DNA of 64,000 nt from Ahniella affigens (GTDB lineage Bacteria; Pseudomonadota; Gammaproteobacteria; Xanthomonadales; Ahniellaceae): assembly GCF_003015185.1 (NCBI RefSeq), contig NZ_CP027860.1, positions 5,115,001 to 5,179,000 on the forward strand, given 5' to 3'. A program made the translations under genes and the position numbers. Under the pieces are notes generated by a model, which saw nothing but the letters and a program-made list of their open reading frames with translations, ran no database searches and was not told where the DNA came from. This document shows, piece by piece, positions 11,432 through 55,563 of this stretch (its first letter is position 1; every line of letters starts with the position of its first letter).

Positions 11432-11534
11432 GAGTTCATCCTCTGGTGTCTGACGTCTGAGCCAAGCGGCCCGCATGGACTAGGCTGCCGCTCGATTCTC
11501 GCAAAAAGCAACGCGCACTGCAGCGGGCCGGAGC

Positions 11535-11665
11535 GAGTCGGAGACACCCACCTAGTTCGGGTTTCCTGCGGTTTGGAGGCCCCTGCCGTGCGCAAGTTCA
11601 AACCCACCCCGGATCAAGTCCGGGGTGACGAGAGGTCGATTTCGGTTTCGCTGGGTGTCCGATCC
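11535..11665 (+). repeat. A-family intergenic repeat
   Basis: A full copy from GAGTCGGAGACACCCA to GCTGGGTGTCCGATCC with the central CCCCGGATCAAGTCCGGGG hairpin. It continues directly into a further 240 bp that is duplicated at about 14810-15410. Confidence 0.75.
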
Positions 11666-11723
11666 TTCGGCTGGCTGTATTCATGGCGCCTGACACCGTC
11701 GCAGGGCCGCCTACTCCGTTGTC

Positions 11724-11806
11724 GTCATCCCGACGAAAGTCGGGATCCAGAATACTTGCGGCACCGCGGCCAGATTGCCCTGGGTCCCGACTTTCGTCGG
11801 GATGAC
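11724..11806. repeat. C repeat: 22-bp inverted arms with GAAA hairpin loops
   Basis: The arms at 11724-11745 and 11785-11806 are perfect reverse complements. Each arm is itself a hairpin, with stem CCCGAC/GTCGGG and loop GAAA. This copy is intact and serves as the empty site for the insertion at 14896-15231, since the surrounding ~260 bp (11650-11910) are duplicated there. Confidence 0.75.
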
Positions 11807-11872
11807 GAATTGGGGGGTGACGCCGCAAATTCCTAGATGTCCGCTTTCCATCCGGTTTGCCGAGAGTCTGAA

Positions 11873-12044
11873 ACCCACCCCGGATCAAGTTCGGGGTGGC
11901 GAGAGGTGAATTGCGGCTTCGCTGGGCGTCCGATTCTTCGAAGTCCGGGGTGACGAGAGGTCGATTGCGGTTTCGCTGGGTATCCGATCCTTCGCTCTTA
12001 GAGGTCGATTGCGGCTTCGCTGGGTGTCCGATCCTTCGTCCGAT
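11873..12044 (+). repeat. Tandem partial A repeats
   Basis: Three nested right-hand parts of the A family follow each other (about 11873, 11941 and 12000), each ending TGGG(T/C)GTCCGAT or close to it. They replace the DNA-binding half of the AraC-type paralogue that begins at 12045. Confidence 0.65.
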
Positions 12045-14823: not shown

Positions 14824-14895
14824 GCGGCCGGCTGTATTCATGGCGCCTGACACCGTCGCAGGGCCGCCTACTCCGTTGTCGTCATCCCGACGAAA

Positions 14896-15231
14896 CAGAC
14901 TGTGTGAAAACGCCCCCACGGTGGAATCAATTTGAAGTTAAGTGCATTGCAATCAGTCTGAAACTGCTTCAAGCATTGAGCGTCGCCCGGTCGGCGTCAG
15001 CCGCGCCTCGCAGTGACAGACCTTATTGTCGTCATCCTGGCGCAGCCGGGATCCAGGGCAATCTCGCGGTGTGCTCGCAACGATGGCGCACGGCGCGCCA
15101 GATCGATCGTCTGAGTCAAGATTGCCCTGGATCCCGGAATCCGCTGCGCGGCTTCCAGGATGACGGCAATAGTGGCAATGGCACTCGAACACATTTGGCT
15201 CGGGCAGATTGAGGTGTTTTCACACAGTCTG
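14896..15231. mobile_element. Non-autonomous element with 16-bp inverted ends in a C-repeat hairpin loop
   Basis: The 336-bp segment begins CAGACTGTGTGAAAAC and ends with its exact reverse complement. It is flanked by GAAA on both sides (14892-14895, 15232-15235). Removing the element and one GAAA restores the uninterrupted C repeat as seen at 11724-11745. It encodes no transposase; its interior has GC-rich inverted repeats, including TCATCCTGGCGCAGCCGGG. A second element with the same ends is at 55099-55421. The autonomous parent is not in the window and I cannot name its family. Confidence 0.85.
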
Positions 15232-15365
15232 GAAAGTCGGGATCCAGAGTATTTGCGGCACCGCGGCCAGATTGCCCCAGGTCCCGACTTTCGTCGGGAT
15301 GACGAATTGGGGGTGGCGCCGCAACCTCCTAGATGTCCGCTTTCCATCCGGTTTGCCGAGAGTCT

Positions 15366-45143: not shown

Positions 45144-46366
45144 GGAGGGTCTGAACAAGTCGGTTTTTGGCGATGGATTCCGTCCTCCGGATTCTCAGGC
45201 GGGTTTCGGTCGGTGATCCGTTAAGTATCCTTCCTAATCGGTATCGTTCTTCACTTGGGAAAGCGGTTCTGGCGCTACTTTGCCCCTCTTTCGTGATCAG
45301 CTCGCGAACTTCGGGCGCAACTCCCCTGCAGTTTCAAGTAGCACTTTTCTGACACGATGCAAATTGGCCAGCGCGAACAGGGTGACGATGTGACTGGTGT
45401 TCTTGGCCAATCCCTTGAAGCGCGCCTTGTTGTACCCAAAGAAGCACTTCACCTTCTGAAACGCATGCTCGACTCGCGCGCGAACCTGCGCCTTCCTACG
45501 CTCGATCTTCACGATATTGCTCTTTGCCCGACCTTCTTCCATCGCCTTGATCGCGCTTCGGCGCATCGCAATCCTCCACTCAGGGAAGCGCTGCTTGCGC
45601 GGATGGTTCTCGCGCATGTTTTTGTCGGCGCCCTGGTAGCCCGCATCTGCCCATACTGTCTCTTCCTTGCCGTGCAGCAGGCTTTCAACGTGATCAACAT
45701 CGGCATCATTGGCTGCCGACGTCACCACTGTGTGGACCAGACCACTGTCAGCATCCACGCCAATATGCGCCTTCATGCCGAAGTACCACTGGTTGCCCTT
45801 CTTCGTCTGGTGCATCTCAGGATCCCGCTCACCGTCTGAGTTCTTCGTCGAACTCGGTGCCGCGATGATCGTCGCATCGACGATCGTGCCACGCTTCAGC
45901 AGCAAGCCCTTGCGCGACAAATGACCGTTGATCCGCTCCAGTATCGACGAAGCCAAATCATTCGTCTCAATCAGACGCCGAAAGTTCAGGATCGTCGTCT
46001 CGTCTGGAATGCTGCCGCTCAGCGTCAGACCGGCAAAGTTCCGAATCGACACGATCTCATACAGCGCTTCTTCCATCGCCGGATCGCTCAACCCAAACCA
46101 GTTCTGCATCAGGTGAACCCGGAGCATCACTTCAACGGGGTACGGGCGACGGCCGCGACCGGCGACCGGATAAACCGACTCAATGTCCTTCAGCAATGCT
46201 GCCCACGGCACGACTTGCTCCATCTCGGCTAGGAATACCTCCCGACGCGTCTGCTTCTTCTTAGCCGCATATTCCGCGTCACCGAAACTCATCTGGTCCA
46301 TGCTGAAATAACCTCGCCGCAACACCTGTATCTAACCAGAAATTGCGGGACTTGTTCAGACCCTCC
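45144..46366 (-). mobile_element. IS5-family insertion sequence, copy 1
   Basis: A 1223-bp element with perfect 18-bp terminal inverted repeats (GGAGGGTCTGAACAAGTC) and CTAG target duplications at 45140-45143 and 46367-46370. It carries one transposase gene on the minus strand. Its transposase is identical to that of copy 2 at 48261-49483. Insertion is inside the KAP NTPase gene and looks recent, since the target duplication and flanking frame are intact. Confidence 0.93.
45297..46325 (-). CDS. IS5-family DDE transposase
   Basis: This 342-residue protein begins at GTG 46325 (ATG at 46301 is an alternative). The N-terminal region has the IS5-type DUF772 block (RPYPVEVMLRVHLMQNWFGL). The DDE core shows GTIVDATIIAAP (first Asp), ETVWADAGYQGADK (second Asp) and a Glu in RVEHAFQKVKCFFGYN. 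The protein is full length and probably active. It is identical to the product at 48302-49330. Confidence 0.93.
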   Translation of the reverse strand: MLRRGYFSMDQMSFGDAEYAAKKKQTRREVFLAEMEQVVPWAALLKDIESVYPVAGRGRRPYPVEVMLRVHLMQNWFGLSDPAMEEALYEIVSIRNFAGLTLSGSIPDETTILNFRRLIETNDLASSILERINGHLSRKGLLLKRGTIVDATIIAAPSSTKNSDGERDPEMHQTKKGNQWYFGMKAHIGVDADSGLVHTVVTSAANDADVDHVESLLHGKEETVWADAGYQGADKNMRENHPRKQRFPEWRIAMRRSAIKAMEEGRAKSNIVKIERRKAQVRARVEHAFQKVKCFFGYNKARFKGLAKNTSHIVTLFALANLHRVRKVLLETAGELRPKFAS

Positions 46367-46370
46367 CTAG

Positions 46371-48162: not shown

Positions 48163-48260
48163 CTGGTCATGCAGGCGCATCGGGGATTTCTGATTTGGGC
48201 CTCAGAAATTCCTGAGTCTGAGCGACCGCAAGGGTGACGGATTGCGCTGAGACGGCTTAG

Positions 48261-49483
48261 GGAGGGTCTGAACAAGTCCCGCAATTTCTGGTTAGATACA
48301 GGTGTTGCGGCGAGGTTATTTCAGCATGGACCAGATGAGTTTCGGTGACGCGGAATATGCGGCTAAGAAGAAGCAGACGCGTCGGGAGGTATTCCTAGCC
48401 GAGATGGAGCAAGTCGTGCCGTGGGCAGCATTGCTGAAGGACATTGAGTCGGTTTATCCGGTCGCCGGTCGCGGCCGTCGCCCGTACCCCGTTGAAGTGA
48501 TGCTCCGGGTTCACCTGATGCAGAACTGGTTTGGGTTGAGCGATCCGGCGATGGAAGAAGCGCTGTATGAGATCGTGTCGATTCGGAACTTTGCCGGTCT
48601 GACGCTGAGCGGCAGCATTCCAGACGAGACGACGATCCTGAACTTTCGGCGTCTGATTGAGACGAATGATTTGGCTTCGTCGATACTGGAGCGGATCAAC
48701 GGTCATTTGTCGCGCAAGGGCTTGCTGCTGAAGCGTGGCACGATCGTCGATGCGACGATCATCGCGGCACCGAGTTCGACGAAGAACTCAGACGGTGAGC
48801 GGGATCCTGAGATGCACCAGACGAAGAAGGGCAACCAGTGGTACTTCGGCATGAAGGCGCATATTGGCGTGGATGCTGACAGTGGTCTGGTCCACACAGT
48901 GGTGACGTCGGCAGCCAATGATGCCGATGTTGATCACGTTGAAAGCCTGCTGCACGGCAAGGAAGAGACAGTATGGGCAGATGCGGGCTACCAGGGCGCC
49001 GACAAAAACATGCGCGAGAACCATCCGCGCAAGCAGCGCTTCCCTGAGTGGAGGATTGCGATGCGCCGAAGCGCGATCAAGGCGATGGAAGAAGGTCGGG
49101 CAAAGAGCAATATCGTGAAGATCGAGCGTAGGAAGGCGCAGGTTCGCGCGCGAGTCGAGCATGCGTTTCAGAAGGTGAAGTGCTTCTTTGGGTACAACAA
49201 GGCGCGCTTCAAGGGATTGGCCAAGAACACCAGTCACATCGTCACCCTGTTCGCGCTGGCCAATTTGCATCGTGTCAGAAAAGTGCTACTTGAAACTGCA
49301 GGGGAGTTGCGCCCGAAGTTCGCGAGCTGATCACGAAAGAGGGGCAAAGTAGCGCCAGAACCGCTTTCCCAAGTGAAGAACGATACCGATTAGGAAGGAT
49401 ACTTAACGGATCACCGACCGAAACCCGCCTGAGAATCCGGAGGACGGAATCCATCGCCAAAAACCGACTTGTTCAGACCCTCC
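48261..49483 (+). mobile_element. IS5-family insertion sequence, copy 2
   Basis: A 1223-bp element with the same 18-bp ends and length as copy 1 but in opposite orientation, flanked by TTAG (48257-48260, 49484-49487). It is inserted in a B repeat: the left flank ends CTGAGACGGCTTAG and the right flank resumes TTAGTGGCTCAGGC. With copy 1 it brackets a 1.9-kb segment in inverted arrangement. Confidence 0.93.
48302..49330 (+). CDS. IS5-family DDE transposase
   Basis: Identical in amino-acid sequence to 45297-46325: DUF772 block, DDE residues and full 342-residue length, with GTG start (ATG eight codons later possible). The presence of two identical copies argues for recent transposition. Confidence 0.93.
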   Translation: MLRRGYFSMDQMSFGDAEYAAKKKQTRREVFLAEMEQVVPWAALLKDIESVYPVAGRGRRPYPVEVMLRVHLMQNWFGLSDPAMEEALYEIVSIRNFAGLTLSGSIPDETTILNFRRLIETNDLASSILERINGHLSRKGLLLKRGTIVDATIIAAPSSTKNSDGERDPEMHQTKKGNQWYFGMKAHIGVDADSGLVHTVVTSAANDADVDHVESLLHGKEETVWADAGYQGADKNMRENHPRKQRFPEWRIAMRRSAIKAMEEGRAKSNIVKIERRKAQVRARVEHAFQKVKCFFGYNKARFKGLAKNTSHIVTLFALANLHRVRKVLLETAGELRPKFAS

Positions 49484-55020: not shown

Positions 55021-55098
55021 GGTCTTGCGTTGGTGGTGCGCCGTTTTGGTTAGGTCGGATGGCGGCGCGTCGCAAGATTGCCCTGGGTCCCGACTTTC

Positions 55099-55421
55099 CA
55101 GACTGTGTGAAAACCTTTGGGCAGCACAAAATTTGGCGCTTCAACATAGCCTCGGTGCGGCTGCAAGACCTTCAAACCCACCCCGGATCAAGTCCGGGGT
55201 GACGAGAGGTGGATTGGAACTCCTTGGGGAACCGATCCTTTCTAGCGTCTGAAGCAACGACTTTGCCTCGACGGACACTCTCGAGATTCGTCACCCCGGA
55301 CTTGATCCGGGGTGGGTTTCAGGCTCGCGGCAAACTGACCCATCATTTGCACTCATCATCGCTTCCGAACCCGATCGGCTAGGTTGCTCGAACCAGCCCT
55401 TTGTTGTTTTCACACAGTCTG
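55099..55421. mobile_element. Second element with 16-bp CAGACTG ends in a C-repeat loop
   Basis: The ends CAGACTGTGTGAAAAC and GTTTTCACACAGTCTG are exact inverted repeats, flanked by TTTC on both sides (55095-55098, 55422-55425). Removing the element and one TTTC restores CCCGACTTTCGTCGGG, the other arm of a C repeat. The 323-bp interior differs from that of 14896-15231 and holds two A-repeat cores in inverted orientation. No coding capacity. Confidence 0.85.
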
Positions 55422-55563
55422 TTTCGTCGGGATGACGGGTAGGGGGCTGTGGTGCGGCACGTGTCTTGATGACAACTTTGGGGCCTTGGCAGACGGCCGC
55501 GAGGATTGATCGGCAATCAGTGTAGGATGCGGCGCGATTCGGCTTTCTCTGGCAGGTGGTCCG

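Follow-up and report, generated by a model that had tools for sequence, protein, structure and literature searches.

A 336-bp element at positions 14896-15231 separates the two arms of a hairpin in the stretch of Ahniella affigens DNA analysed here (the window; 64 kb, C1:5115001-5179000 of the 6.12-Mb genome), which raises the question of whether the element chose the hairpin itself as its target. We conclude that it is likely to be a non-autonomous member of an IS1182-type group that inserts in hairpin loops; transposition was not observed. The element has exact 16-bp terminal inverted repeats (TIRs), with CAGACTGTGTGAAAAC on the plus strand spanning 14896-14911 and an exact reverse complement of it spanning 15216-15231. 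As listed in Table 1, it interrupts the hairpin CCCGAC-GAAA-GTCGGG, and the break falls exactly at the 4-base loop. With up to two mismatches allowed, the 16-mer end occurred four times in the window, compared to 0.01 occurrences expected from shuffled sequences.

Table 1. Coordinates of the two elements in the window, their target hairpins and the corresponding empty site
Feature	Position	Strand	Description
MITE, 336 bp	14896..15231	.	16-bp TIRs CAGACTGTGTGAAAAC; centre is a long inverted repeat
Target duplication, left copy	14892..14895	+	GAAA, hairpin loop
Target duplication, right copy	15232..15235	+	GAAA
Split target hairpin, left arm	14881..14891	+	GTCATCCCGAC
Split target hairpin, right arm	15236..15247	+	GTCGGGATCCAG
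Second hairpin of the doublet	15283..15298	-	intact, beside the 336-bp element
Paralogous block	11534..11938	+	carries the empty site; 93% identity to the occupied block
Intact target hairpin	11729..11744	+	CCCGAC-GAAA-GTCGGG
Second hairpin of the empty doublet	11786..11801	-	
Second MITE, 323-bp class	55099..55421	.	identical exact ends
Target duplication of second MITE, left copy	55095..55098	+	TTTC, loop of CCCGAC-TTTC-GTCGGG
Target duplication of second MITE, right copy	55422..55425	+	TTTC
Left hairpin arm of second MITE	55085..55094	+	GGGTCCCGAC
Right hairpin arm of second MITE	55426..55436	+	GTCGGGATGAC

The intact sequence CCCGACGAAAGTCGGG is present in the window at 11729-11744, 11786-11801, and 15283-15298. 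After the element and one GAAA had been removed by script, the occupied and the empty block aligned over 405 columns with 93% identity, and the single gap of this alignment fell away from the insertion site. The unjoined halves of the occupied block overlapped on the empty block in exactly four bases, GAAA. These results show that the occupied block equals the empty block with the 336-bp element and an additional GAAA inserted. A preliminary description of the locus, made from sequence alone, had reported the 16-bp inverted ends, the GAAA flanks, the split hairpin, and the empty site at 11729-11744, all of which held. Its length of ~260 bp for the duplicated block failed, the block being about 405 bp, and the second copy of the window at 55099-55421 was absent from it.

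This second element (323 bp) is flanked by a duplicated TTTC and lies in the loop of the same hairpin in the opposite strand. Eleven further copies of the 323-bp class showed 81-98% identity to it, and since five of them reached at least 96%, we infer that some copies of this class are fairly young. Throughout the host genome the end was matched 90 times with up to two mismatches, compared to zero matches for the reversed control. For a set of 27 paired copies, chosen by size class and ends alone, the sizes fell into classes of 148, 204-205, 322-323, and 336-345 bp. The flanking tetramers formed a perfect 4-bp direct repeat in 13 copies and matched at three of four positions in seven; they were inverted, such as GAAA..TTTC, in four (1838906, 3056547, 3346493, and 4441089), and three copies showed no duplication. 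Directly outside the tetramer, 14 of the 27 copies had a perfect stem of at least 5 bp. Its arms were CCCGAC/GTCGGG in seven cases (226700, 4141392, 4143808, 4165105, 5129896, 5170099, and 5339452) and different in the other seven, for example TTCCAGC-GAAA-GCTGGAA (3795987), CGCCGGC-CTGC-GCCGGCG (1097477), and CCCGC-CTTA-GCGGG (2301686). The remaining 13 copies had an imperfect (interrupted) stem or none. Copies 1001636 and 5722211 showed a perfect duplication yet carried arms from two different hairpins. Recombination among the many hairpin repeats would fit these mixed-arm copies and the inverted tetramers alike. The inverted tetramers would also be consistent with a loss of the DNA that separates the paired hairpins of a doublet, but both ideas are conjecture only. 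It is also possible that the four copies with inverted tetramers represent stem-loop replacements.

Two further observations concern the repeats of this genome. Copies of the end at C1:5572149, 5572402, and 5572655 are exactly 253 bp apart, in direct orientation and with near-identical neighbouring bases, and thus form a tandem array. By eye, the duplicated block of the window looks like the inner part of a 205-bp element, with the ends missing.

One alternative is that the arms are not a target hairpin at all, the element simply having a longer inverted repeat of its own. In its favor, the two arms have the same sequence when read away from the element, and the tetramers of four of the 27 copies are inverted, which a longer TIR would produce. 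Against it stand the 38 uninterrupted CCCGACGAAAGTCGGG sites in the host genome, the natural empty plasmid alleles described below, the direct tetramers in 13 and near-direct tetramers in seven of the 27 copies, and the variation of the arms within the 323-bp class. This alternative is ruled out wherever a copy has an empty counterpart and is otherwise all but excluded.

A second alternative is that the transposase reads a specific palindromic sequence, such as a REP repeat, and that the 4-bp duplication reflects a fixed stagger. The host-genome target hairpins indeed have a common GTCAT..CC..GC core. We set against this alternative a co-variation test, in which Watson-Crick pairs were counted over the eight positions outside the 4-bp duplication and the right flanks were permuted among sites. 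In 24 paired host copies, picked because their tetramers matched at three or four of the 4 positions, 6.5 of the 8 arm positions were paired, compared to 5.06 after permutation (P ≤ 5e-5). The host stems thus co-vary, and the tetramers vary as well (GAAA, CTTC, CTGC, CTTA, TTTG), both of which argue against a specific sequence; on this and the further evidence given below we regard this alternative as unlikely.

As their ends match the ends of IS1182 elements, we assign the 336- and 323-bp elements to the IS1182-type MITEs. CAGACTGTGTGAAAAC is found exactly at both ends of the elements L160 and L179, whose transposases were tested, and L358, which has an annotated IS1182 transposase. Five of five transposases tested from ~1.5-1.7-kb elements that have one or both ends exact matched NCBIfam IS1182 (417-463 bits, cut-off 270), and both transposases tested against Pfam matched DUF772 and DDE_Tnp_1. 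At least 120 stretches from public genomes carry the exact end. The R variant of the end was found in 58 stretches of viral contigs, in one of ten genomes of the family (A. affigens itself), and in 11 of 398 genomes of the order, including A. affigens. In the host genome, no IS1182 transposase gene scored above the cut-off (best NF033551 match, 94.9 bits), no IS1182 transposase match was obtained at E ≤ 1e-60, and no end within three mismatches was present in the three stretches checked around fragments. The host MITEs (148-345 bp) lack an IS1182 DDE transposase and are thus not autonomous IS1182 elements, which does not exclude MITE status; insertion in palindromic targets is met by at least some IS1182 members. 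Mobilisation in trans by an IS1182 transposase, none having been found in the host genome, is an inference.

Two candidates for a parent were rejected. One is an IS5-like element of ~1.2 kb with a 344-aa frame, which has 13 genome copies, two of them in the window at ~45144-46369 and ~48258-49483; it has the ends GGAGGGTCTGAACAAGTC and CTAG/CTAA-like flanks. For the broken IS1182 frame at C1:1620219-1620950, the closest end-like 16-mer alongside has five mismatches, and its protein groups with a distant IS1182 row in a tree that carries a long-branch warning. Separately, an IS1182-like element with the same end and a frame in two pieces was seen at 610-2245 of L201, a contig labelled Candidatus Lokiarchaeota (MAG), possibly by a binning error.

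Full-length relatives were gathered from Pseudomonas genomes and plasmids, 23 of 398 Pseudomonas genomes having a relative at E ≤ 1e-180 (up to four candidates scored per genome). The 100 loci scanned yielded 87 with an end pair and 78 unique sites, of which 63 held elements of 1580-1610 bp and 14 elements >1640 bp; one element of 1554 bp belongs to neither group. In the 1580-1610-bp group, the ISPpu20-like clade, a perfect stem of at least 6 bp flanked the duplication at 52 of the 63 sites, examples being AAAAAGGGGCC-TTCG-GGCCCCTTTTT and AAAAACCCGCC-TTAAT-GGCGGGTTTTT. When the right flanks were permuted 1000 times with the positional consensus kept, such stems occurred at a mean of 4.9 and a maximum of 12 sites. 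No perfect 6-bp stem was present at 11 of the 63 sites. The arm-closing base was C on the left in 54 and G on the right in 53 of the 60 sites with a duplication of at least 4 bp, arm positions 2-6 were mixed C/G, and an A4 or T4 tract, as in terminators, lay on at least one side of 62 of the 63 sites and on both sides of 37. The pairing is far above permutation despite the closing C-G pair and the A/T tract, both of which the permutation keeps.

The duplication was 4 bp long at 39 of these 63 sites, 5 bp at 18, 6 bp at three, and 0-1 bp at three. It coincided exactly with the loop at 32 of the 52 stem sites (25 loops of 4 nt and seven of 5 nt). Among 4- and 5-bp duplications, length followed the loop: 27 sites combined a 4-bp duplication with a 4-nt loop and seven a 5-bp duplication with a 5-nt loop, compared to one site with 4 bp and 5 nt and three with 5 bp and 4 nt (Fisher P = 7e-5). 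When all 51 hairpin sites that have a duplication were taken together, duplication and loop length showed only a weak rank correlation (rho 0.19, P 0.19); loops defined as 3, 6, 7, or 9 nt likewise accompany 4- to 6-bp duplications, and where the duplication was 5-6 bp the loop itself measured 5 or 7 nt at eight of 16 hairpin sites. The common closing C-G pair of the Pseudomonas sites is a further point in favor of the specific-sequence alternative. Against it are the 46 different duplicated words in the 60 sites, combined with pairing far above permutation, and the tracking of loop length by 4- and 5-bp duplications.

These data also bear on what the preliminary description had inferred. Targeting of hairpin loops, with the loop becoming the duplication, held and is extended by the further host copies and by 52 of 63 Pseudomonas sites. 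CCCGAC-GAAA-GTCGGG as the target held only in part, as seven of 27 copies have such arms, seven another perfect stem, and 13 an imperfect one or none. Flanks without hairpins or duplications of other lengths had been named as refuting this reading, and such exceptions exist: four of 27 copies have inverted tetramers, three have no duplication, and relatives show 5-6 bp. The full-length parent with a transposase that was to be sought was not found in the host genome, only elsewhere, and the suggested likeness to IS1397 was corrected, the element being an IS1182-type MITE and not an IS1397 relative.

Natural empty alleles were identified for three sites. pND6-1 shares the uninterrupted ACCCGCC-TTAAT-GGCGGGT with a P. 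veronii plasmid, compared to the occupied site in pPHE24; GGAGCC-GGTA-GGCTCC is empty in a P. mosselii plasmid and occupied in a CIP-10 plasmid; and GGGCGCCATGGGCGCCC is empty in pPp1290 (flanks 94-95% identical) and occupied in pL4046hy, with the tetramer CATG. The occupied plasmid records carry TTAAT, GGTA, or CATG twice.

For a wider comparison, 94 cross-species pairs, including pairs from the public-genome and viral-contig stretches mentioned above, were reduced to 89 after removal of repeats and then grouped by the presence of a box, not of a hairpin. The box is the motif GNCNGC at a distance of four bases from the duplication, on one side or both. A few group-A pairs in this set are doubtful, two of them being 61 bp, and the duplication was below 3/4 in eight of the 44 pairs without and six of the 45 pairs with the box. 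In the 44 unique sites without the box, pairing was 4.55 compared to 2.27 after permutation (P ≤ 5e-5), and 4.57 compared to 2.38 (n = 30) when Pseudomonas, near kin, and one viral contig were left out. The 45 unique box sites (GNCNGC....TSD....GCNGNC) showed no stem co-variation (4.07 versus 4.32 permuted, P = 0.97). Elements >1640 bp, including ISPa7/ISPmo1-like ones, had a 6-bp stem at none of 14 Pseudomonas-side sites. Both results support the specific-sequence alternative as far as these elements are concerned, and the sister clade probably does use a fixed palindrome without hairpins. As a separate observation, viral contigs (L311, L314, L321, L329, L348, and others in L300-L357) contain elements of 1677-1679 bp and ~159-bp MITEs, mostly at GNCNGC....NNNN....GCNGNC palindromic sites.

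A transposase tree was built from 87 frames, one being kept per near-identical group. Distant rows distorted the first tree of 44 rows, and seven rows were left out when it was built again. In the resulting 37-row tree, 14 hairpin- and 14 box-labelled rows lay on opposite sides of one branch with 100/100 support, nine rows being unlabelled. As the hairpin rows are all from Pseudomonas and were mostly obtained via one query, the tree supports a single origin for the labelled set only and does not extend this to every occurrence of the trait.

A third alternative is that the choice is indirect, insertion being broad and selection sparing only insertions in terminators or REPs. The terminator-like A/T tracts at 62 of 63 Pseudomonas sites speak for it. 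However, selection for intergenic positions would not account for insertions that hit the loop with single-base precision, and the elements >1640 bp, some of them in the same genomes (G626 and G629 hold both kinds), are without A4/T4 at 13 of 14 sites, such a tract being present at only one. We consider this alternative very unlikely.

The preferred reading, insertion in hairpin loops, also bears on how these elements are arranged. In the 205-bp class, the centre holds a doublet of the exact target hairpin in five of six elements folded. As some of the landing pads thus lie inside other MITEs with the same ends, elements nest. Three composites of 531-532 bp (226552, 4143690, and 5339361) have the size of a 205-bp plus a 322-323-bp element plus four bases; their inner ends are in place, and 5339361 was read through. 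At C1:4440967-4441236 (L124), two 61-bp left parts of the 148-bp MITE stand head to tail, each ending in a GAAA loop, and are followed by a whole one. This array might have arisen by serial self-insertion and later loss of the right halves, which is an inference.

The ends, the duplications, the co-varying stems, the empty alleles, and the presence of IS1182 transposases in longer elements that share the end are shown, and a hairpin-loop-targeting IS1182-type MITE is likely to be real and is well supported. In the mechanism we propose, an IS1182-type DDE transposase would insert into a DNA hairpin (palindrome) at its loop and join each 3′ end of the element at the stem-loop junction. The loop, usually 4-5 nt, would become the target duplication, and both hairpin arms would remain outside the element. 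The feature recognised would be an extruded hairpin or cruciform, not one sequence, and REP-like hairpins would serve as landing pads in the host genome. Unrelated palindromes share little as B-form DNA, and the shared dyad and exact loop placement therefore point to an extruded structure; cruciform extrusion and junction cleavage, like mobilisation by an IS1182 transposase, are nevertheless inferred. We lean, with reservation, towards a bolder reading, according to which one IS1182 clade reads hairpin shape, cuts the cruciform at the stem-loop junction, and duplicates a loop of any sequence or length. The sister clade would read a fixed palindrome, the family keeping both states of a sequence/structure switch, and the host MITEs would carry their own landing pads, giving nested, telescoped self-insertions.

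With natural empty alleles and duplications following 4- and 5-nt loops, structure-guided transposition becomes directly testable; intact parents are named (ISPpu20-like, Pseudomonas), and the sister clade provides a control. Terminators and REPs as landing pads bear on gene avoidance and on the mutual build-up of hairpin repeats and MITEs.

Several known systems resemble the elements described here. REP-targeting insertion sequences (Tobes and Pareja 2006, PMC1525189; ISPpu9) likewise insert in repetitive extragenic palindromes. They belong to other transposase families and are bound to particular REP sequences; IS1397, which inserts in such palindromes, is a member of the IS3 family. In REPIN/RAYT systems, REP ends are mobilised by a RAYT (Y1) transposase, whereas the window ends are DDE-type TIRs with duplications. 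Other MITEs have been described (PMC3189936 and PMC6382973). ISPa7/ISPmo1 share the IS1182 family, a similar TIR, and a 4-bp duplication, GGCC, but have no hairpin at the site (L366), and L366 falls in the box group, split from the hairpin group by the 100/100 branch. ISPpu20 and the ISPpu20-like Pseudomonas elements (~1.6 kb) have the same TIR type and an annotated IS1182 transposase and lie in terminator loops; they are autonomous, whereas the 336- and 323-bp elements of the window have no transposase. ISPpu20 was named in no paper of the literature searched.

The closest precedent in target choice is IS1272/TnSha1 of Staphylococcus, which likewise belongs to the IS1182 family and targets hairpins. 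Its targets are inverted-repeat structures that share no sequence, and several are terminators (Furi 2016, PMC4923244; Wan 2017, PMC5678879). Partial deletion of the target hairpin was described by Furi 2016 (PMC4923244), and according to Wan 2017 (PMC5678879) IS1272 replaces the stem-loop, duplication of the loop only being a possibility in their model (pathway c, Fig 13). Beyond that model, no earlier report of loop duplication was found in the literature searched, which did not cover ISfinder/TnPedia and most subscription papers. In IS1272/TnSha1 the hairpin is partly or wholly lost without a duplication, whereas elements of the window type keep the arms and duplicate the loop. Replacement of the IS1272 type does not fit the window copy, 60 of the 63 Pseudomonas sites (4-6-bp duplication), or the three sites for which an empty allele was identified. 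That IS1182 elements can target hairpins is already known; what is surprising is the loop-sized duplication and the split of structure- and sequence-reading clades.
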